This document shows positions 51,126-60,754 of a DNA stretch of 64,000 nucleotides, one piece after another (positions within the stretch are counted from its first letter, which is position 1; the number at the start of each line of letters is the position of its first letter). The notes beneath the pieces were generated by a model. The model was not told where the DNA came from, made no database searches, and saw only the letters and a list, made by a program, of their open reading frames with translations. The stretch covers positions 120,893-184,892 of the forward strand of contig JAFDYT010000011.1 in assembly GCA_018266055.1 (NCBI GenBank). The letters are read 5' to 3'. The position numbers and the translations under genes were made by a program. The stretch comes from Bacteroidota bacterium. Its GTDB lineage: Bacteria; Bacteroidota; Bacteroidia; Cytophagales; Cyclobacteriaceae.

Positions 51126-51198
51126 AATGATTTTCTATTTGAATGATTTGATCTGCCATCAGCCTAACAGTTGGAAGGCAGAATTAACAAAAACTTTG

Positions 51199-51206
51199 CA
51201 AAGGTA
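51199..51206 (-). promoter_or_regulatory. -7 box of the kdsA operon
   Basis: On the minus strand TACCTTTG matches TAnnTTTG exactly, about 75 bases upstream of the kdsA start. Its edge touches the probable -33 element (ATTG at 51206-51209) of the divergent arginine promoter. Confidence 0.5.
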
Positions 51207-51239
51207 TTGACTTATTTAAAATTTTAACGCTTAATTTTG
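51206..51239 (+). promoter_or_regulatory. Promoter of the arginine operon
   Basis: ATTG at 51206-51209 and TAATTTTG at 51232-51239 fit the Bacteroidota -33 (TTTG/TTG) and -7 (TAnnTTTG) boxes with 22-base spacing. Transcription would start near 51246, giving a leader of about 280 bases before the first structural gene. Confidence 0.6.
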
Positions 51240-51294
51240 CATAAACAACAAAAACGGAATGCCTTTTATCTAACGGTAAAACCACTAACGCGAA

Positions 51295-51429
51295 TTGGAA
51301 AAAGAAACTATCACCCACGGAATCAGCCTCTTCAACAGCGATTCCATCAATTGCCGCCAGGCATTGAACAAAACGCTACTCACCGTTACACGCGTGGGAA
51401 GGCGACCCCATAGGCGCATCCGAATCTGA
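51295..51429 (+). CDS. Putative Arg-rich leader peptide
   Basis: A 44-codon frame starting at TTG, with an in-frame TAA just before it, ending in TVTRVGRRPHRRIRI. Arginine codons lie at 51391, 51400, 51403, 51412, 51415 and 51421: six of the last twelve codons, using CGC, AGG and CGA. This is the expected form of a translated attenuation peptide for an arginine operon, since stalling at Arg codons would report Arg-tRNA shortage. No homologue is recognised and TTG is a weak start, although GTG and TTG starts are used elsewhere in the same operon (GNAT, argC, argD). Confidence 0.5.
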   Translation: MEKETITHGISLFNSDSINCRQALNKTLLTVTRVGRRPHRRIRI

Positions 51430-51453
51430 TACCCCATACCATTTTATGTATTT

Positions 51454-51478
51454 AGCAAAATGCCGAGGGTGTTTTGCT
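51454..51478 (+). terminator. Leader hairpin of the arginine operon
   Basis: AGCAAAATGCC / GGTGTTTTGCT stem with a GAG loop: seven outer AT/GC pairs, two wobble pairs, two inner CG pairs. Downstream T-rich runs start eight bases after the stem. It may act as the attenuator's terminator. Confidence 0.5.
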
Positions 51479-51526
51479 GGTAGTACTTTTTAGCGTTTTT
51501 CTTACTTTATTCAACTTAGACTAATC

Positions 51527-52273
51527 GTGAACAATACTATTATTGTGCGTGAGGCTACGTCGGCCGATGCACACTTTGCGGAACTGATTACTACGGAAAT
51601 GGCCGAATCGGCTAAAGCCAGGGGCACCGGTATTGCCAAACGCTCTCCCGACTACATCAAAATGAAGATGGAAGAGGGAAAAGCGGTCATTTCGCTGACC
51701 GAATCGGGCGAATGGGTGGGCTTCTGCTACATTGAATCGTGGGAACACGAAAAATTTGTAGCCAACAGCGGACTTATCGTATCGCCTCCATTCCGCAAGA
51801 GCGGCGTTGCTACGCTTATCAAACGAAAGATCTTCGAGCTGTCGCGAAAGAAATATCCACACGCCAAAATCTTCGGGCTCACCACAGGTTTGGCGGTGAT
51901 GAAAATTAATTCGGAACTGGGCTACGAGCCCGTGACTTACTCAGAGTTGACTACCGACGAAGAGTTTTGGAAGGGCTGTCAAAGCTGCGTGAACTATGAG
52001 ATCCTGAAAAGTAAGGAGCGCAAAAACTGCATGTGTACCGCCATGCTTTATGATCCGGTGGAAGTGGCGCAAAAGCAGGCCGAGCGCAGCAAAACCGTGG
52101 TAACTCCGGAAGGAGAAATCGAACATCATAAAAAGAGAGAGTTTCAGGGTAATTTTAAATTATTCGAGCGGTGGACACGCTTTAAGCAATTCGTGTTGCT
52201 AAAAAGCTGGCGAAAGAAAGACGAAACGAACGAGCCCAAGAAGCCAGGCTTCCTGAGTTTTTTGTTTTGGTAA
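51527..52273 (+). CDS. GNAT acetyltransferase, probable glutamate N-acetyltransferase
   Basis: 248 residues from a GTG start. The N-terminal 150 residues are a GNAT domain with the acetyl-CoA motif SGLIVSPPFRKSGVATLIKRKIFELS (about 84-109) and MKINSELGYEPVTYSEL. The C-terminal 100 residues are specific to this family and include cysteines (CQSCVNYEIL, KNCMCTAML). It is the first gene of the arginine operon, and Bacteroidota lack a classic argA/argJ here, so it is the likely N-acetylglutamate synthase. The acyl group (acetyl versus succinyl) is not settled by sequence. Confidence 0.88.
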   Translation: MNNTIIVREATSADAHFAELITTEMAESAKARGTGIAKRSPDYIKMKMEEGKAVISLTESGEWVGFCYIESWEHEKFVANSGLIVSPPFRKSGVATLIKRKIFELSRKKYPHAKIFGLTTGLAVMKINSELGYEPVTYSELTTDEEFWKGCQSCVNYEILKSKERKNCMCTAMLYDPVEVAQKQAERSKTVVTPEGEIEHHKKREFQGNFKLFERWTRFKQFVLLKSWRKKDETNEPKKPGFLSFLFW

Positions 52274-52308: not shown

Positions 52309-53526
52309 ATGAAAAAAGTAGTTCTTGCATTCAGCGGCGGTTTGGACACCTCGTATTGCGCTATCTATCTGTCAAAAGAGTTGGGCTATGAAGTGCACAC
52401 GCTTACCGTCAACACGGGAGGCTTTGACGCCAACGAAGTGAAAGACATTGAAAAGCGGGCGCTGAACCTCGGCGTAAAGTCGCACAAGACAGTGGACGAA
52501 ACCAAAAATTACTACGACAAAGTAATCCGCTTCCTGGTGTATGGCAACGTATTGAAAAACGCGACGTATCCGCTCAGCGTAAGTGCCGAGCGCATGTCGC
52601 AGGCACTGGCTGCAGCGCTGTATGCCAAAGAAATTGCCGCCGATGCCGTAGCTCACGGAAGCACAGGCGCCGGCAACGACCAGGTGCGCTTTGATATGGT
52701 GTTTCAGATTCTCGCGCCGGGACTCGAAATCATCACACCAATCCGTGACAAAAAACTGAGCCGCCAGGAAGAAGTCGATTACCTGAATAATCACGGCTTC
52801 TCTTTCAGCGCCGAAAAAGCAAAGTATTCGATCAACAAAGGAATCTGGGGAACATCGGTAGGAGGAAAAGAAACACTCAATTCATTGGGCATGCTGCCAG
52901 AAGAAGCGTGGCCTACTCAGGTGACCAAAAAAGAAAGTGAAGAAGTAACACTCGGTTTTGAAAAAGGAGAGTTGGTCCGAATTAACGACAGACGATTCGC
53001 GCACCCTACCGAGGCGATTCAATATCTTCAATCGATCGCCGGGCCTTATGGCATTGGCCGCGACATTCACGTAGGTGATACAATAATTGGTATAAAAGGA
53101 AGAGTTGGCTTTGAAGCGGCTGCGCCAATCTTAATTATTAAAGCGCATCACGCCCTGGAAAAACACGTGCTCACCAAATGGCAACTGAGCTGGAAAGATC
53201 AGCTTTCGCAATTTTATGGCAACTGGCTGCACGAAGGTCAATACCTTGATCCGGTGATGCGAAACATCGAAGCGTACCTTACCGACTCGCAGCAGCAGGT
53301 GACCGGTGATGTTTCCGTAACTCTCCTTCCCTATCGCTTTCAGATCAACGGCATTCTTTCTCCGTTCGATTTGATGTCATCTCGTTTTGGAAAATATGGT
53401 GAGATGAACCTGGGTTGGACCGGTGACGATGTGAAAGGATTCACCAAGATCTTTGGTAATCAGGTAGCGATCTATCATCAGGTAAAAGAGGAAGGCGAGA
53501 AACTGCAGGTGCTGAATGACGAGTAG
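52309..53526 (+). CDS. argG: Argininosuccinate synthase
   Basis: 405 residues. It joins citrulline and aspartate using ATP. The pyrophosphatase-type loop AFSGGLDTSYCAIYLSKEL (9-27) and HGSTGAGNDQVRFDM (about 123-137) are present, with GTSVGGKETLN. In the Bacteroidota route the carbamoyl product is deacylated before this step. It follows the acetyltransferase by 35 bases. Confidence 0.97.
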   Translation: MKKVVLAFSGGLDTSYCAIYLSKELGYEVHTLTVNTGGFDANEVKDIEKRALNLGVKSHKTVDETKNYYDKVIRFLVYGNVLKNATYPLSVSAERMSQALAAALYAKEIAADAVAHGSTGAGNDQVRFDMVFQILAPGLEIITPIRDKKLSRQEEVDYLNNHGFSFSAEKAKYSINKGIWGTSVGGKETLNSLGMLPEEAWPTQVTKKESEEVTLGFEKGELVRINDRRFAHPTEAIQYLQSIAGPYGIGRDIHVGDTIIGIKGRVGFEAAAPILIIKAHHALEKHVLTKWQLSWKDQLSQFYGNWLHEGQYLDPVMRNIEAYLTDSQQQVTGDVSVTLLPYRFQINGILSPFDLMSSRFGKYGEMNLGWTGDDVKGFTKIFGNQVAIYHQVKEEGEKLQVLNDE

Positions 53527-53602
53527 TAGTGAAAAGTGGAAAGCAGAAAGTCTTATGCCTAGCGTCTTACGTCTTGTGTCAAAAATCTAATGTCTGATTA
53601 AA

Positions 53603-54580
53603 GTGAAAGAGAAAATTAAAGTGGGGATAATCGGAGCCGCAGGATATACCGGCGGCGAAACCATACGGCTGCTGCTGCGTCATCCTCACGCCGAACTTGT
53701 ATTCGCGCAAAGCAGAAGCCAGGCCGGAAAGCCCATTGCCAACACACATACCGACCTGATTGGCGATACAGACCTTAAATTTTCAGAAGGCTTTAACTAC
53801 GAGGTGGATGTACTTTTTCTTTGCCTCAGCCATGGTGAAAGCAAAAAGTGGCTGGTCGAAAACAAGATCAATCCTTCTACCAGAATCATCGACCTTGGCA
53901 ACGACTTTCGCCTGGGCGACAAAGCCGGCGATCGTGAGTTTGTGTACGGACTTCCGGAGTTTCAACGCGAGCAAATCAAACACGCAAAAAACATTGCCAA
54001 TCCCGGTTGCTTTGCCACCGCCATACAGGTGGGACTGCTGCCACTCGCTCAGAAAAATTTGTTGAGCGAAGTGTACACCACGGGTATCACAGGATCAACC
54101 GGCGCAGGACAAAAGCTGCAAGACACTACGCACTTCACCTGGCGCACCAATAATATTTCGGCTTACAAAACACTCACGCATCAGCATCTCGGCGAGATCA
54201 AACGCACGCTGCAATCGGCTCAACCGGGGTATAACGAATCGATCAACTTTGTGCCGTGGCGTGGAGATTTCGCACGCGGAATTTATGTGTCGTCGGTGGT
54301 AAACTGCGCACTGACTCTGACCGAACTTTACGAACTATACAAATCGTATTATCAATCGCACCCCTTCACTCATGTTTCTGAATCGATGATCGACCTGAAG
54401 CTGGTGGTCAACACCAACAAGGCGCTGATTCATTTGGAGAAGGTTGACGACAAACTCGTGATCCACTCCGCCATCGACAATTTGCTCAAAGGCGCCAGCG
54501 GGCAAGCGATTCAAAACATGAACTTACTTTTTGGAATAGACGAAACGGCAGGGCTTCAGCTAAAATCAATCGGATACTAA
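53603..54580 (+). CDS. argC: N-acetyl-gamma-glutamyl-phosphate reductase
   Basis: 325 residues from a GTG start. It reduces N-acyl-glutamyl phosphate to the semialdehyde using NADPH. Seen: VGIIGAAGYTGGETIRLLLRHP (nucleotide fold), the active-site Cys in IANPGCFATAIQVGLLPL, and HQHLGEIKRTL. The spacer to argG (53527-53602) has repeated GTCTT words but no gene. Confidence 0.95.
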   Translation: MKEKIKVGIIGAAGYTGGETIRLLLRHPHAELVFAQSRSQAGKPIANTHTDLIGDTDLKFSEGFNYEVDVLFLCLSHGESKKWLVENKINPSTRIIDLGNDFRLGDKAGDREFVYGLPEFQREQIKHAKNIANPGCFATAIQVGLLPLAQKNLLSEVYTTGITGSTGAGQKLQDTTHFTWRTNNISAYKTLTHQHLGEIKRTLQSAQPGYNESINFVPWRGDFARGIYVSSVVNCALTLTELYELYKSYYQSHPFTHVSESMIDLKLVVNTNKALIHLEKVDDKLVIHSAIDNLLKGASGQAIQNMNLLFGIDETAGLQLKSIGY

Positions 54581-54581
54581 T

Positions 54582-55382
54582 ATGGCAAAGAAAATTGCAA
54601 TCATCGGTGGAGGAAATCTTGGAACGGCCATCGCACAAGGTCTTGTAAAATCTAAAATCGCGAAAGCCTCAGCGATCACCATCACCCGAAGAAATCTCGC
54701 GAAGCTTGATCATCTAAAGAGCGAAGGTTTTGTACTAAAAACGGATAACCTTGATGCGGTAAAAAAAGCCGAGCTGATTATTCTGTGTGTGCAACCCAAG
54801 CAACTTGCGCCACTACTCGCCGATATTTCGCCGCTACTTTCTTCAAACCATATTTTGGTTTCTACCATCACTGGAATCAGCACTGACGAAATTGCATCGC
54901 AAGTGCAAAAGAAAATTGCCGTGGTGCGCGCTATGCCTAACACCGCCATTGCCATTGGCCAGTCGATGACTTGTCTTTGCGCCAAAGATGCCTCTGAAAA
55001 GCAATTGGCCGAAGTGCAGGACCTCTTCAACGGATTGGGCAAAACATTGATTGTTGAAGAGCGCCTCATGAAAGCAGCCACGGTGTTGGCCGCGAGCGGC
55101 ATTGCCTTTTTCATGCGCTATGTGCGGGCCGCCACGCAAGGTGGAATACAGATGGGCTTCGACGCTGAAGAAGCACAACTGATTGCTGCGCAGACTGCCC
55201 GTGGTGCTGCTTCACTCCTGCTCTCGCGCGAGTCGCACCCGGAAATAGAAATCGACAAAGTGACTACGCCTGAAGGCTGCACCATCGCCGGCTTGAACGA
55301 GATGGAACATCAGGGATTGAGCTCCGCGCTGATCAAAGGGATAATCACTTCATTTGAAAAAATTAATAACATCAGGAAGTAA
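54582..55382 (+). CDS. proC: Pyrroline-5-carboxylate reductase
   Basis: 266 residues. Reduces pyrroline-5-carboxylate to proline. The nucleotide loop IAIIGGGNLGTAIAQGL, ITGISTDEI, VRAMPNTAIAIGQSMTC and the C-terminal TPEGCTIAGLNEMEHQGLSSALIKGI are family features. It begins two bases after argC. Its place inside the arginine operon is common in this phylum as I recall, and links proline with arginine synthesis. Confidence 0.96.
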   Translation: MAKKIAIIGGGNLGTAIAQGLVKSKIAKASAITITRRNLAKLDHLKSEGFVLKTDNLDAVKKAELIILCVQPKQLAPLLADISPLLSSNHILVSTITGISTDEIASQVQKKIAVVRAMPNTAIAIGQSMTCLCAKDASEKQLAEVQDLFNGLGKTLIVEERLMKAATVLAASGIAFFMRYVRAATQGGIQMGFDAEEAQLIAAQTARGAASLLLSRESHPEIEIDKVTTPEGCTIAGLNEMEHQGLSSALIKGIITSFEKINNIRK

Positions 55383-55463
55383 AGTTGACAACATTAGTTT
55401 CGATAATCACAACACTCCTCCTGATTTTGCATTACACATTACTTTCACTTTAACTTTTAGAAC

Positions 55464-56585
55464 TTGAAACTATTCGACGTTTATCCTCTCTTCCCCATTG
55501 AACCGGTAAAAGCCCAGGGCTCATGGCTTTGGGACAAGGAAGGAAAAAAATACCTGGACCTCTATGGTGGTCATGCTGTGATTTCCATTGGGCATAGCCA
55601 TCCGCACTATGTTGATGAACTAAAGAAGCAGCTTGATAAAATCGGGTTCTACTCCAACAGCGTGCAAAATTCTCTTCAGGAAAATCTATCTGAGAAACTA
55701 GGGAAGATTTCAGGGTACACCGACTATCAGCTTTTTCTTTGCAACTCCGGTGCTGAAGCCAACGAAAACGCGTTGAAGCTCGCCTCGTTTGTAACCGGTA
55801 GAAAAAAAATAATTGCGTTTAAAAAATCATTTCACGGAAGAACGTCGGGCGCGGTGGCTGCTACAGATAATCCCAAGATCGTAGCTCCGTTCAATGCAGG
55901 ACACAGCATTGAGTTCCTGCCGTTGAATGATGCCGAGGCTTCTTCTCAAGCTATCAGCAGCGATGTAGCCGCCGTAATCATCGAAGGAATCCAGGGTGTA
56001 GGCGGAATTCAATTGCCTGACTCAACCTTCCTTCAGCTCATTGCCAAGAAATGCAAAGAAGTTGGCGCGTTGCTGATTCTTGACGAAGTGCAGTCAGGAT
56101 ATGGCCGTACAGGAAAATTCTTTGCTCATCAATTCTCGGGAATAAAACCTGACCTGATCACCGTTGCCAAAGGAATGGGTAACGGCTTTCCGGTAGGTGG
56201 TGTTTTGATCGCACCGGAAATAAAACCATGGAGCGGTATGCTGGGCACTACCTTCGGAGGCAACTACCTTGCCTGTGTGGCGTCGCTGGCGGTGCTTGAA
56301 GTTATTGAAAAGGAAAAACTCATGGCTAACGCCGAAGCTCTGGGAAATTACTGGATGGAGAAATTACGCGAGTTTAAGGCCATCACGCAAGTTCGTGGCA
56401 AAGGGCTGATGATCGGCTTCGATCTGCCGGAAGAGTTTGTCGGCTTAAGGAAAAATCTGCTTACCACGCACCGCATTTTTACCGGCGAGGCTAAACCAAA
56501 TACGGTCCGCTTGCTGCCGTCGCTGGCTCTGAAAAAAGAAGAAGCCGACTTACTGTTGAACGCCTTAACCACCGAACTGAACTAA
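55464..56585 (+). CDS. argD: Acetylornithine/N-acyl-ornithine aminotransferase
   Basis: 373 residues from a TTG start, chosen because the family begins MKLFDVYPLFPIEPVKAQG here and no ATG is near. PLP-dependent class III transaminase; LFLCNSGAEANENALKLA, IIEGIQGVGGIQ, LILDEVQSGYGRTG and the PLP Lys in TVAKGMGNGFPVGG are visible. It transfers an amino group to N-acyl-glutamate semialdehyde. Confidence 0.95.
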   Translation: MKLFDVYPLFPIEPVKAQGSWLWDKEGKKYLDLYGGHAVISIGHSHPHYVDELKKQLDKIGFYSNSVQNSLQENLSEKLGKISGYTDYQLFLCNSGAEANENALKLASFVTGRKKIIAFKKSFHGRTSGAVAATDNPKIVAPFNAGHSIEFLPLNDAEASSQAISSDVAAVIIEGIQGVGGIQLPDSTFLQLIAKKCKEVGALLILDEVQSGYGRTGKFFAHQFSGIKPDLITVAKGMGNGFPVGGVLIAPEIKPWSGMLGTTFGGNYLACVASLAVLEVIEKEKLMANAEALGNYWMEKLREFKAITQVRGKGLMIGFDLPEEFVGLRKNLLTTHRIFTGEAKPNTVRLLPSLALKKEEADLLLNALTTELN

Positions 56586-56590
56586 CGATC

Positions 56591-57550
56591 ATGAAGAAAT
56601 TTCTGTCCGTAGACGATGTGCCTGACATCACCGCACTCATCACCAAAGCCCTTGCCTACAAAGTAAATCCCCTGGCCGACAAAACGCTTGGTGCTGGCAA
56701 AAGCATGGGGCTTTTGTTTTTAAATCCCAGCATGCGCACACGCCTGAGCACTCAAATTGCCGCTCAGAATCTTGGCATGGAACCAATCGTGTTTAACGTT
56801 GGCCAGGATGGGTGGACGCTTGAGTTTGAAGAAGAGGCCATCATGAGTGGCAACACCGTGGAGCACGTAAAAGAAGCCGCTCCGATCCTCGGAAAATATT
56901 TTGACGTGTTGGGAATCCGAACTTTTCCTTCCCTGAAAAATAAAGAAGACGATTATTCGGAATTGTATATCAACCAGTTTGTAAAATACTGCGGCATCCC
57001 CGTAGTAAGTTTGGAGAGCGCCACATTGCATCCATTACAAAGCCTGACTGATTTAATCACGATCACAGAGCTATTCAAAGAAAACAGGAGGCCAAAAATT
57101 GTGCTGACGTGGGCACCGCACGTAAAGGCGCTGCCGCAATGTGTAGCTAATAGCTTTGCGCAATGGGTAAACGCCTGGGGAAAAGCCGACTTTGTAATTG
57201 CCCATCCGGAAGACTACGAACTCGATAGAAAATTTACGCAAGGAGCACGTATCACACACCATCAGGAAGAAGCGCTAAAAGACGCTGACTTCGTGTACGT
57301 AAAAAACTGGAGCACCTACACCGACTATGGAAGAATCTATTGCAATGACCCCGAATGGATGCTCACCAACGAAAAATTAGAAAGCACGCACAATGCAAAG
57401 GTCATGCACTGTTTGCCCGTGAGAAGAAATGTAGAGCTAAGCGACGAAGTGCTAGACGGCAGTAACAGTCTTGTAATCCATCAGGCGGCCAACCGCGTGT
57501 GGGCAGCCCAGGTCGTGTTGAGTGAAATTTTGAGAGGCATTAAAAAGTAA
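56591..57550 (+). CDS. argF': N-acyl-ornithine carbamoyltransferase
   Basis: 319 residues. Carbamoylates N-acyl-ornithine rather than ornithine. The carbamoyl phosphate loop SMRTR (47-51), LHPLQSLTDLITI, and HCLPVRRNVELSDEV are present. In Bacteroides fragilis the specificity residue for succinyl substrates is Pro90; here the aligned residue, from remembered sequence, is Val90 (GNTVEH), neither the succinyl-type Pro nor the acetyl-type Glu of Xanthomonas. So acetyl versus succinyl preference is open. Confidence 0.95.
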   Translation: MKKFLSVDDVPDITALITKALAYKVNPLADKTLGAGKSMGLLFLNPSMRTRLSTQIAAQNLGMEPIVFNVGQDGWTLEFEEEAIMSGNTVEHVKEAAPILGKYFDVLGIRTFPSLKNKEDDYSELYINQFVKYCGIPVVSLESATLHPLQSLTDLITITELFKENRRPKIVLTWAPHVKALPQCVANSFAQWVNAWGKADFVIAHPEDYELDRKFTQGARITHHQEEALKDADFVYVKNWSTYTDYGRIYCNDPEWMLTNEKLESTHNAKVMHCLPVRRNVELSDEVLDGSNSLVIHQAANRVWAAQVVLSEILRGIKK

Positions 57551-57568
57551 AACCCGTCGTCATCTGTT

Positions 57569-58357
57569 ATGAACAAACTTTACATCATAAAAATCGGAGG
57601 TAACGTACTTGACGACGAAAAAGCGCTCGCCTCTTTTCTTACCGATTTTGCATCCATACAGGCGCCTAAAATTCTCATTCACGGTGGCGGAAAAATCGCT
57701 ACGAAAATCGGAGATCAGTTGGGTATCAAATCCAATTATGTAGATGGCCGGAGAATCACGGATGCGGCGACGCGCGATGTAGTGACGATGGTGTACGGCG
57801 GCCTCATCAACAAGCAGATCACTGCGCGCCTACAGGCCTTGCACTGCAACGCCATGGGCATGACTGGCGCCGATGGGAATTTGCTTAAAGCCACGAAACG
57901 TCCCGTCGGAAAAATTGATTATGGTTTTGTGGGCGACATCACAGCCGAAAATGTCAACTCTACTTTGCTCTATTTTTTATTGAAGCAAAATGTCGTTCCC
58001 GTATTCGCACCACTCACTCATGCCGCCGGGGAAATCCTGAACACCAATGCCGACACGATTGCGTCTGTTCTGGCGGTAGCGCTGAGCAAACACTTCGACA
58101 TCCGACTCATTTTCTGTTTTGAAAAAGCTGGCGTATTGAAAGATGTGAACGATGCCGACTCGGTGATTCGCAACCTGAACACCGAACTATATCAGAAGCT
58201 TTTGAAGGAAGGCTCCTTTCACGACGGGATATTGCCTAAATTGGAGAACGCTTTCAACGCCATTCGCTCAGGCGTAAAGGAAGTATTGATCGGCGAGCAC
58301 TCGCATCTGGTGGCCAATACCGGCTACGAAACAAAAGGAACACTGATAACGGCATAG
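57569..58357 (+). CDS. argB: Acetylglutamate kinase
   Basis: 262 residues. Amino-acid kinase fold: IKIGGNVLDDEK, LIHGGGKIATKIGDQLGI, VDGRRITDAATRDVVTMVYGGLINKQI, and NTNADTIASVLAVALSKHF. It phosphorylates the gamma carboxylate of N-acyl-glutamate. The gene starts 18 bases after the carbamoyltransferase stop, and the last residues lie two bases from argE. No N-terminal arginine-binding helix of the feedback-inhibited hexameric type is obvious, which would be consistent with control elsewhere, but this is tentative. Confidence 0.95.
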   Translation: MNKLYIIKIGGNVLDDEKALASFLTDFASIQAPKILIHGGGKIATKIGDQLGIKSNYVDGRRITDAATRDVVTMVYGGLINKQITARLQALHCNAMGMTGADGNLLKATKRPVGKIDYGFVGDITAENVNSTLLYFLLKQNVVPVFAPLTHAAGEILNTNADTIASVLAVALSKHFDIRLIFCFEKAGVLKDVNDADSVIRNLNTELYQKLLKEGSFHDGILPKLENAFNAIRSGVKEVLIGEHSHLVANTGYETKGTLITA

Positions 58358-58359
58358 AA

Positions 58360-59442
58360 ATGAAAGAGCATCTCACACCGTTGGCTATCGAATTATTGCA
58401 GCAGTTGATCAGCATTCCTTCGTTCAGCAAAGAAGAGAATAAAACAGCATCGCTAATCGAAAGTTTTTTCAAGCATTACGAAATCGAAACGTCGCGCAAA
58501 GGAAACAACGTGTGGTCGAAAAATAAATTCTTTGATCCCTCTAAGCCTACGCTCCTTTTAAACTCTCATCACGACACAGTTAAGCCAAATCCGGGCTATA
58601 CACGAGACCCTTTCTCCGCCGATATCGAAGACGGAAAACTATTCGGCCTCGGCAGCAACGATGCCGGTGGCGCACTGGTGTCGCTCATCATGACCTATTT
58701 TTATTTCTATGGCGAGCAAAATTTGAAATACAATCTCGTATTGCTCGCATCAGCAGAAGAAGAAATTTCAGGAACCGGCGGTGTGGAGTTGGTGTGGGAT
58801 GAACTTCCTAAAATAGATTGTGCTATTGTGGGTGAACCCACGTTGCTTGATATGGCCATTGCTGAAAAGGGACTGATGGTGCTGGATTGCGTTGCTAAAG
58901 GAAAGGCTGGCCATGCGGCGAGAGAAGAAGGTGTAAATGCCATCTATGAAGCCCTCTCAGATATCGAGTGGTTTCGAAATTATCAGTTTCCAAAAATATC
59001 GCCAACACTGGGAAAAGTGAAAATGAGTGTCACCGTCATCCACGCCGGGCAGGCACACAATCAGGTGCCACCAGAGTGTAAATTCACCGTCGATTGCCGG
59101 GCTACAGATGCCTACTCGCTGGAGGAAATCCTGGAAACAGTACAACAAAACGTGAAGTGCGAAGTAACGCCAAGATCATTGCGCCTGCGGCCTTCGGGTG
59201 TTGATGAGAACCATCCGCTCGCGCTGTCGGGCAAAAAACTTGGACTGCAGTTTTACGGCTCGCCTACTACCTCCGATCAGGCGTTGATTCCTGTGCCGTC
59301 TGTAAAAATCGGGCCAGGAGATTCTGCGCGGTCGCACAGTGCCAACGAATTTATTTATGTACAAGAAATCGAGAATGGCATCGAAACGTATATCGCATTA
59401 ATCGAAAACCTCAACCTGCATGAAACTCTGGCAAAAGGATAA
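58360..59442 (+). CDS. argE: N-acyl-citrulline/ornithine deacylase, M20 family
   Basis: 360 residues. M20 metallohydrolase: LLLNSHHDTVKPNPGYTRDPF (metal His and Asp), GLGSNDAGGALVS, LASAEEEISGTGG (the catalytic Glu pair), and a dimerisation domain with MSVTVIHAGQAHNQVPPECK. Because the carbamoyltransferase acts on the acyl form, the likely substrate is N-acyl-citrulline. The 3' end overlaps argH by 23 bases. Confidence 0.93.
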   Translation: MKEHLTPLAIELLQQLISIPSFSKEENKTASLIESFFKHYEIETSRKGNNVWSKNKFFDPSKPTLLLNSHHDTVKPNPGYTRDPFSADIEDGKLFGLGSNDAGGALVSLIMTYFYFYGEQNLKYNLVLLASAEEEISGTGGVELVWDELPKIDCAIVGEPTLLDMAIAEKGLMVLDCVAKGKAGHAAREEGVNAIYEALSDIEWFRNYQFPKISPTLGKVKMSVTVIHAGQAHNQVPPECKFTVDCRATDAYSLEEILETVQQNVKCEVTPRSLRLRPSGVDENHPLALSGKKLGLQFYGSPTTSDQALIPVPSVKIGPGDSARSHSANEFIYVQEIENGIETYIALIENLNLHETLAKG

Positions 59443-60754
59443 AGACTCGCTCAAAGAAGTAAGTCAGTTTACGGTGGGCAAAGACGGCGAGATGGATTTG
59501 TTTCTGTCGCGCTTCGATGTGCTGGGGTCATTGGCGCACATCACCATGCTGGAGTCGGTTGGTTTGCTTACGAAAGAAGAACTCATTACACTTTCTAAAG
59601 AATTAAAATCAATTTATCAGGAAATTGAAAATGGAAAGTTCGTGATTGAAGAAGGTGTTGAAGATATTCATTCGCAAGTAGAGGTTCTTCTTACCCGTAG
59701 AATCGGAGAAGCTGGAAAGAAAATACATAGTGGCAGAAGTCGCAACGACCAAGTACTGGTAGACATTAAGCTTTTTCTTCGCCACGAAATTCAACGTTCG
59801 GTTGAGCAAATAAAAAATCTTTTTGATATCCTCCTCGCCAAAAGTGAAGAGCATAAGCATCGGCTTTTGCCAGGTTATACCCACTTGCAGTTGGCCATGC
59901 CTTCGTCATTCGGACTTTGGTTTGGTGCATACGCCGAAAGCCTTGCCGACGATCTGATCACTCTTCATGGCGCGTATCAGATTGCGAATAAAAATCCGTT
60001 GGGTTCAGCTGCCGGATACGGGTCGTCGTTCCCGTTAAACCGCACGATGACTACCAAACTCCTTGGCTTCGACGACTTGAACTACAACGTAGTGTATGCG
60101 CAAATGGGCCGCGGCAAGTCTGAGCGCATCGTAGCGCAGGCCCTGGCTAACGTTGCCGCCACGCTGGCAAAACTAGCCATGGACGCATGCCTATTCCTTA
60201 ATCAGAATTTCGGATTAATTTCCTTTCCAGATGAACTTACTACGGGCAGCAGCATCATGCCACACAAAAAAAACCCTGATGTATTTGAATTGATTCGCGG
60301 AAAATGCAATGCACTTCAATCTCTTCCGAACGAAATTGCCATGCTCACTACCAATCTTCCGTCGGGATATCATCGCGAATTTCAACTTCTAAAAGAAAAA
60401 GTGTTTCCTGCTTTTCAGACGCTGAACGATTGCCTGAGTATGACCGGCCTGATGCTCTCCAACATGATAGTGAAAGACAATATTCTTGAAGACGAGAAGT
60501 ACAAGTTCCTGTTTAGTGTGGAAGAGGTAAACAAGCTGGTGCTGACTGGCGTGCCGTTCCGTGACGCGTACAAAAAAATCGGGAAAGAAATTGAAGAAGG
60601 TAAATTCACCTATTCAACCAAAATAAATCATACCCATGAGGGAAGTATTGGCAATCTTTGCAACGATAAGATCAAAGCCAACTTTGAATCGACGCTAAGT
60701 TCATTTCATTTTGAAAAACCGGAGGCGGCAATTCGCCAATTGTTAGCTCTCTAA
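59420..60754 (+). CDS. argH: Argininosuccinate lyase
   Basis: 444 residues. Last step, forming arginine and fumarate. The fumarase/aspartase signature GSSIMPHKKNPDVFELIRG is present (about 274-292), with VEDIHSQVEVLLTRRIGEAGKKIHSGRSRNDQVLVD near the N-terminus. It begins 23 bases inside argE and its 3' end overlaps the convergent DUF2721 gene by 12 bases. Confidence 0.96.
   Translation: MKLWQKDKDSLKEVSQFTVGKDGEMDLFLSRFDVLGSLAHITMLESVGLLTKEELITLSKELKSIYQEIENGKFVIEEGVEDIHSQVEVLLTRRIGEAGKKIHSGRSRNDQVLVDIKLFLRHEIQRSVEQIKNLFDILLAKSEEHKHRLLPGYTHLQLAMPSSFGLWFGAYAESLADDLITLHGAYQIANKNPLGSAAGYGSSFPLNRTMTTKLLGFDDLNYNVVYAQMGRGKSERIVAQALANVAATLAKLAMDACLFLNQNFGLISFPDELTTGSSIMPHKKNPDVFELIRGKCNALQSLPNEIAMLTTNLPSGYHREFQLLKEKVFPAFQTLNDCLSMTGLMLSNMIVKDNILEDEKYKFLFSVEEVNKLVLTGVPFRDAYKKIGKEIEEGKFTYSTKINHTHEGSIGNLCNDKIKANFESTLSSFHFEKPEAAIRQLLAL

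Follow-up and report, generated by a model that had tools for sequence, protein, structure and literature searches.

Bacterial arginine biosynthesis is usually described as being under the control of ArgR. Arginine can also be sensed through a translated leader, as by the fungal arginine attenuator peptide, an upstream peptide of an arginine gene at whose stop codon free arginine arrests the ribosome. Lyubetsky and colleagues have reportedly published comparative papers on attenuation, which may hold related predictions. Among described bacterial systems, the one that the mechanism predicted here most resembles is Salmonella orf34-speF, although the peptides described below lie outside the SpeFL family. 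As set out in passages of its description (PMC6386406), orf34-speF has a short leader ORF with rare, consecutive Arg codons, one hairpin that holds the stop codon and another downstream of it; no intrinsic terminator was found, low arginine favours expression, and control runs through Rho, translation and RNase G. Passages of another report describe rbfL of Staphylococcus aureus, an upstream ORF with rare Arg codons that senses arginine (PMC13009471). Transcriptome work in Flavobacterium psychrophilum or Bacteroides thetaiotaomicron has led to proposals of leader-peptide attenuation at amino-acid operons (PMC9723704) and of leader peptides in long 5' UTRs (PMC7366714), and the passages concerned name no arginine leader. 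An earlier sequence-only reading of this DNA proposed a candidate translated attenuator for its arginine operon. The open-access literature searched yielded no arginine-biosynthetic leader peptide in bacteria and no counterpart of the leader described here.

The locus studied here lies in the window, by which we mean the whole stretch of DNA that was analysed (64,000 nucleotides). Upstream of its arginine operon is a short Arg-rich frame whose translation, judging from the DNA of this locus and its relatives, probably senses arginine supply and sets the expression of the operon. With orf34-speF it shares an Arg-codon leader ORF and, to judge from hand-picked sets, a hairpin downstream of the stop, and a terminator is not found in most arg leaders. 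In passages of the same source (PMC6386406), however, orf34-speF controls ornithine decarboxylase, whereas the leader here precedes arginine biosynthesis; there the Arg adjoining the stop is dispensable, while here an Arg at position -2 is the most constant residue; and orf34-speF is described as conserved in gamma-proteobacteria. The five leaders compared here with Pfam are unrelated to its peptide. The arrangement is also like that of trp and his attenuators, those of the same genomes included, in that a peptide using codons for the amino acid that the pathway makes is encoded just upstream of the operon. Those attenuators, however, have a GC hairpin followed by a U-tract (all 16 trp and 10 of 16 his leaders, but 2 of 16 arg leaders), and their last control codons lie at a median of 13 (trp) and 8 (his) codons before the stop, and the arg leaders differ in these respects. 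The fungal arginine attenuator peptide likewise sits upstream of an arginine gene but, unlike the leader here, is eukaryotic. As for rbfL, its target is a biofilm regulator, whose ribosome binding site it covers, and there low arginine lowers expression, according to the passages available (PMC13009471).

The leader and its operon

The features of the locus are these.

51207..51239, forward strand: putative Bacteroidota-type promoter, with TTG at 51207-51209 and TAATTTTG (TAnnTTTG) at 51232-51239
51259..51273, forward strand: mini-ORF ATG CCT TTT ATC TAA (MPFI*), 21 nt 5' of the leader start
51295..51429, forward strand: candidate arginine leader peptide ORF, 44 codons, TTG start at 51295 and TGA at 51427-51429
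51391..51426, forward strand: Arg-rich tail, the final 12 codons (RVGRRPHRRIRI), with six Arg codons and Arg as penultimate residue
51452..51480 (core), extendable to 51449..51486, forward strand: hairpin downstream of the stop, 13 pairs, triloop GAG
51487..51500, forward strand: T-rich stretch after the extended stem, TTTTT at 51487-51491 and 51496-51500, possible intrinsic terminator
51527..52273, forward strand: first operon gene, GNAT acetyltransferase, GTG start
52309..60754, forward strand: remaining operon genes, argG, argC, proC, argD, acetylornithine carbamoyltransferase, argB, argE-like, argH

The TAnnTTTG block at 51232-51239 matches what we take to be the Bacteroidota promoter consensus, and a similar block stands 5' of the leader in relatives. 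Transcription would start near 51246, and the arg leader 3' of the promoter element is about 280 nt long. The divergent kdsA gene has an apparent minus-strand TAnnTTTG element of its own (TACCTTTG; window 51180-51245), which overlaps the -33 region of the arg promoter.

Gene order and spacing suggest that the nine genes from 51527 form one operon. Their identities are NCBIfam best matches, and those of argG, argD, the carbamoyltransferase and the argE-like gene fall below the curated cut-offs. The GNAT gene matches Pfam Acetyltransf_1 at 21.9 bits, barely above the cut-off of 20.7, and NCBIfam weakly; its product perhaps carries out the N-acetylglutamate synthase step. The named records nearest to the GNAT protein are uncultured Cyclobacteriaceae or other Cytophagales, then Chryseosolibacter, Ohtaekwangia and Chryseolinea, and the window is probably part of a Cyclobacteriaceae genome.

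Read directly in the sequence, the leader is the 44-codon TTG frame with six Arg in its final twelve codons that the sequence-only reading had reported, and its peptide is MEKETITHGISLFNSDSINCRQALNKTLLTVTRVGRRPHRRIRI. Searched as DNA against 96 genomes, the leader matches 14 of them at E<=1e-5; these belong without exception to the window's genus and include the window's own genome. The genus set comprises 30 returned loci, 22 of them with the GNAT gene (an argG match adjoins it in 20, and in the remaining two the contig ends within the GNAT gene); removal of one exact duplicate leader left 21 to be read. Every one of them starts with TTG, is 42-44 codons long with Ile as the final codon, stops at TGA and has an Arg-rich tail, of the RRPHRRIRI, KRPARRIRI, RRPHRGIRI or FRRQIRI type. 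In the last 14 codons of these leaders AGG and CGA make up 55 of 96 Arg codons, compared with 24 of 161 in 15 coding sequences of the window. Thus the comparison with related leaders finds both the frame and its Arg codons kept within the genus, and the earlier idea of an arginine-codon leader for the arginine operon gains further from the recurrence of Arg-rich leaders across the phylum.

The signal of in-frame selection within the genus is modest: pN/pS over 14 genus leaders of 44 codons is 0.75 in frame against 0.85 and 0.95 in the other forward frames, and for the tail 0.62 against 1.16 and 0.91. Of 19 Chitinophaga leaders tried, 15 have the same length, and these give 0.41 in frame against 0.98 and 1.66, with one minus-strand frame also at 0.51. 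Five leader peptides compared with Pfam (up to E=1) and NCBIfam gave no match; DUF2618 (PF10940), the family of the SpeFL peptide, is thus among the Pfam families without a match up to E=1. From leader stop to operon gene the median distance is 115 nt (middle half 104-127).

A mini-ORF, taken as an ATG frame of four codons whose end lies 8-40 nt upstream of the leader's start codon, is present in 20/21 genus leaders, in 4/6 named loci assigned to the genus on their peptide and in 16/21 Ohtaekwangia/Chryseolinea-like leaders. Elsewhere it is rare (2/27 in other Cyclobacteriaceae genera, 1/22 in Chitinophaga, 2-4% in shuffles). Its third residue is Phe in 19 genus, 4 named and 14 Ohtaekwangia/Chryseolinea-like leaders. 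Its stop varies (TAA, TGA, TAG), as would be expected of an ORF more than of an RNA motif with a fixed sequence, and it may feed ribosomes to the weak UUG start of the leader.

Arg-rich leaders across Bacteroidota

Among 292 order genomes 235 encode the GNAT protein (E<=1e-30), as do 103 of 247 genomes of the phylum sample (E<=1e-25). Leaders were read at the loci returned by the searches, together with 60 stretches from the order, 40 from the phylum and 80 named loci; the order and phylum stretches were chosen by hand to cover genera, and the set is non-random. The 257 loci gave 240 leaders once one with too little upstream DNA and 16 duplicates had been dropped (L233 and L235 are counted as Cyclobacteriaceae, not Chitinophaga).

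In the order set, 47 of 106 leaders hold a short frame whose last 12 codons include four or more Arg, where shuffles lead one to expect 1.5 and the minus strand, as a control, gives 3. The next-largest excess after that of Arg is for Leu at a level of at least five (11 against 4.9 expected). When the threshold is set at four or more Arg in the final 16 codons, leaders of the order and phylum pass in 92 of 167 cases and shuffles in 4.8%: 21/21 in the genus, 24/33 in other Cyclobacteriaceae, 9/9 in f42 and 11/19 in f26, and none in f16 (0/7), f5 (0/4) or f25 (0/3). Once the named loci are included, 143 of 240 homologous leaders carry an Arg-rich short frame, with 22/22 passing in Chitinophaga and 7/27 in other Chitinophagaceae. 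Among the 97 of 240 leaders that miss the threshold of at least four Arg are visibly related ones, with HTTPFRFR-like tails (f5, f11, f18), SPEVRML tails or, in Chitinophagaceae, RRGC or RRVF tails; in some others, e.g. in f20 and f25, nothing related was seen.

The peptides differ from family to family, each with motifs such as LRRFRNSFRA, HTTPFRFR or SRRPRI, and the element they have in common is Arg. The stop is TGA in 94/143 leaders, including every passing leader of the window's genus, of its neighbours and of Chitinophaga.

Three side observations belong here. Some f26 genomes (L171, L176, L178) have tandem Arg-rich short ORFs before the arg operon, those of L171 at -221 and -73. In Chitinophaga (L236, L249 and others) the leader and the GNAT gene both seem to start with UUG within similar potential hairpins (CAAUUU/AAGUUG), a likeness that could link their translation. 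A contig titled Beijerinckiaceae (L257) carries a Chitinophagaceae-like GNAT gene and leader and is probably misbinned.

A penultimate arginine

Arg stands at codon -2 in 126 of 143 leaders, where 40.4 would be expected if Arg were placed randomly in the last 16 codons, and in 14/76 shuffled frames that pass the same filter. Counting each unique 12-residue tail once gives 99/115. By group, Arg is at -2 in 21/21 genus leaders, 5/5 passing named loci assigned to the genus on their peptide, 21/21 Ohtaekwangia/Chryseolinea-like and 22/22 Chitinophaga leaders, 15/20 in other Cyclobacteriaceae, 6/6 in f13, 10/11 in f26, 5/6 in f11, 6/9 in f42 and 2/7 in other Chitinophagaceae. The apparent rule thus spans several families of differing peptide, relatedness inflating the counts. 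The last Arg codon of arg leaders has a median position of -2, and in the paired genomes considered below the last control codon has a median of -13 in 14 trp leaders and -8 in 16 his leaders.

RNA structure around the leader stop

The hairpin that the sequence-only reading placed after the leader stop is present at 51452-51480, with 13 pairs and a 3-nt loop. Thirteen hairpins, picked by hand from the genus and its neighbours and including the window's, have 93% of cells paired and 23 double-change cells, and 0/500 shuffles reach covariation as high. Another 18, likewise picked by hand but from f11 and the other genera of Cyclobacteriaceae, have a different conserved loop (CC-UAYGY-GG in most) and 24 double-change cells. 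A covariance model of CCUAYGYGG has the arg leader as its best hit in 6/6 genomes, four of which are sources of the model; the other 12 hits lie in or beside other open frames and were judged to be chance, and the idea of a generic element was rejected. The idea that the loop mimics a tRNA-Arg anticodon was also rejected, several loops not matching.

In 14 Chitinophagaceae sequences the stop codon lies inside a stem that hardly varies and whose inner helix covaries. A general stop-codon hairpin is not favoured by a simple test, in which a helix over the stop codon is found in 95 of all 143 leaders (66%) against 80% of shuffles, and the stop stem is retained for Chitinophagaceae only.

The alternative fold proposed earlier fared less well. 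GGCATT (51360-51365) does complement AATGCC (51459-51464) in the 5' arm of the hairpin, and the window's own leader has a z of -1.68 for complementarity between ORF and 5' arm; over 26 leaders (in 4 of which a later hairpin was picked), however, the median z against shuffled ORFs is +0.31. With complementarity no better than that of a shuffled ORF, and the GGCATT pairing not kept in relatives, this switch is rejected as a conserved element. No conserved mutually exclusive fold was found with the pairing of ORF and 5' arm as the partner tested.

Terminators before arg, trp and his operons

A distance of eight bases between stem and T-tract had been counted as a weakness of the window's hairpin as a terminator. 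Because GTATT (51449-51453) can pair with AGTAC (51482-51486), the stem extends to 51486 and the first T-tract follows it directly, which removes the gap for the window's sequence alone. The hairpin passes our terminator filter, and that part of the terminator attenuation proposed earlier stands; as a general mechanism it is doubtful, for a hairpin and U-tract between leader stop and gene is found in only 10 of 143 leaders (shuffles 4/286). Eight of the ten are from the window's genus, one from Ohtaekwangia and one from Chitinophaga, so that the filter passes 8/26 leaders assigned to the genus and 2/117 elsewhere. Stretches farther upstream, on both strands, pass in 29/97 cases, which shows only that the filter can fire. 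A second filter passes 5/20 genus leaders (shuffles 3/60) and 0/56 other leaders (shuffles 3/168).

As a paired control, the 200 nt before trpE, hisG and the arg GNAT gene were compared in 16 genomes. With the main filter a hairpin and U-tract is found before trpE in 16/16, before hisG in 10/16 and before the arg GNAT gene in 2/16; of 16 genomes, a stricter setting passes 16 trp, 10 his and 1 arg leader, and a looser one 16, 12 and 5. At the strict setting the sole arg leader to pass carries the same stem and T-tract as the window. The window is one of the two arg passes at the main setting, so that a genuine terminator is possible there. In its species intrinsic termination may therefore operate; as the general mechanism it is unlikely, and with pass rates of 10/143 and, for paired arg leaders, 2/16, a general intrinsic terminator was rejected for the phylum set.

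WWW runs are seen in most trp leaders of the paired genomes, and His-rich runs in most his leaders. The window's own genome has a classical-looking trp leader (MNHISINAWWWHRSGSDRCFAVLY; L312, before trpE) and a classical-looking his leader (MNTTQNIHHLHHHAHRIVGRLLF; L286, before hisG), each followed by a GC hairpin and U-tract. Six of the 16 his leaders (L284, L285, L287, L289, L295, L299) fail the main terminator filter despite their His-rich frames, and terminator loss may therefore extend beyond arg. Upstream of ilvD, short frames with runs of Ile, Leu and Val (L318, L322, L328), noted by eye, suggest branched-chain leader peptides in some relatives.

Distribution of ArgR

No genome of the order set (0/96, made up of 58 genus genomes and 38 others, some of them incomplete) matches the ArgR model TIGR01529, to which 9 of 14 control genomes are positive. 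In the phylum sample 92 of 247 genomes match, two of them weakly and partially (G398, G376), leaving 90 convincing cases. A convincing ArgR and the GNAT protein, at the threshold used, occur together in only two phylum genomes (G567 and G575), where argR lies directly upstream of the GNAT gene and there is no Arg tail; a diverged GNAT in ArgR genomes may be missed at that threshold. Some GNAT genomes have neither ArgR nor an Arg tail. This distribution fits the replacement of ArgR by the leader, in a split that is confounded with ancestry because both traits largely follow clades.

A model of arginine sensing, and alternatives to it

The mechanism that we propose would run as follows. A ribosome would start at the weak UUG, perhaps fed to it by the four-codon ORF in the genus and its neighbours, and would read Arg codons up to the penultimate position. 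With charged Arg-tRNA scarce it would stall, presumably within the last few codons, and its leading edge would then lie over the stop codon and the first bases beyond. With ample arginine it would finish and leave, the stop-proximal RNA would fold into the conserved hairpins, and these would probably lower expression of the operon. In most of the phylum the output would run through Rho, through the translation of the operon's first gene or through decay of the mRNA, and probably not through intrinsic termination. (A rho gene is present in 7/7 genomes checked; after the leader stop C is at 0.228 and G at 0.169, and C-rich, rut-like sequence is weak.) The conserved frame, the Arg codons, the penultimate Arg, the hairpin covariation and the lack of an ArgR match in the order set support this scheme, and codon sensing by a ribosome stalled over the stop would explain why there are several Arg codons, why they lie so near the stop and why a terminator is lacking. 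More tentatively, many Bacteroidota that lack ArgR may use a widespread leader of a new layout, in which the penultimate Arg is fixed, a ribosome stalled on the stop gates a conserved stop-proximal RNA element without a terminator and the UUG is supplied with ribosomes by the four-codon ORF where that is present, in the window's genus and nearest neighbours.

Attenuation of the classical trp/his type, in which a stall would favour an antiterminator over a U-tract terminator at 51449-51500, is the natural comparison in the window itself, where hairpin and T-tract pass as a terminator, the genome's own trp and his leaders look classical and 8/26 genus-assigned leaders pass the filter. Outside the genus, though, just 2/117 leaders have a terminator (whole-set shuffles 4/286), the strict setting passes 1/16 paired arg against 16/16 trp leaders, the alternative pairing is not conserved and the control codons are at the stop rather than 8-13 codons upstream, and we regard classical attenuation as somewhat unlikely. 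It is also possible that the leader acts as an arrest peptide, the nascent chain binding free arginine or ornithine and arresting the ribosome at termination, for which SpeFL, TnaC and the fungal arginine attenuator peptide are precedents. An Arg fixed at residue -2 would suit arrest, as would the near-constant length of leaders within genera, the family-specific motifs (LRRFRNSFRA, HTTPFRFR, SRRPRI) and the TGA stop of 94/143 leaders and of all passing genus, neighbour and Chitinophaga leaders. Yet Arg aside, the peptides differ between families, the five compared with Pfam or NCBIfam have no match, and the many Arg codons, rare ones in the genus, fit codon-based sensing; arrest is in our judgement an unlikely explanation.

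An arginine-binding RNA, with the ORF incidental to it, was suspected first, on the strength of two blocks that are conserved as DNA, and was dropped after the conserved frame had been found and no Rfam match at threshold. The RNA around the Chitinophagaceae leader stop is strongly conserved, unpaired stretches included, and a hairpin loop is conserved in other Cyclobacteriaceae genera, which counts in favour of a riboswitch, but the RNA motifs vary between families, and in-frame conservation, Arg enrichment and a fixed penultimate Arg all speak against it. Rfam has no match to the window at gathering score (two sub-threshold matches in its leader region look like chance) and none up to E=1 to ten relatives, and we consider a riboswitch highly improbable. 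No more credit is due to a constitutive leader ORF that aids only ribosome loading or reinitiation at the first gene. Leader genes have been proposed as such aids in several phyla including Bacteroidetes, in passages of PMC4833913, but the leader stop here lies a median of 115 nt from the gene, much farther than the short spacings envisaged there, and the Arg codons would be left unexplained. Codon sensing by a leader ribosome thus stays our preferred reading.

Significance

If the leader works as proposed, it would explain arginine control in lineages without ArgR across a major phylum, and arginine would join those amino acids whose biosynthesis is governed by leader peptides. Direct tests are possible both for the rule of the penultimate Arg and for the mini-ORF, and the matched trp, his and arg leaders of each genome would offer a natural comparison between terminator-based sensing and sensing that is apparently terminator-less.
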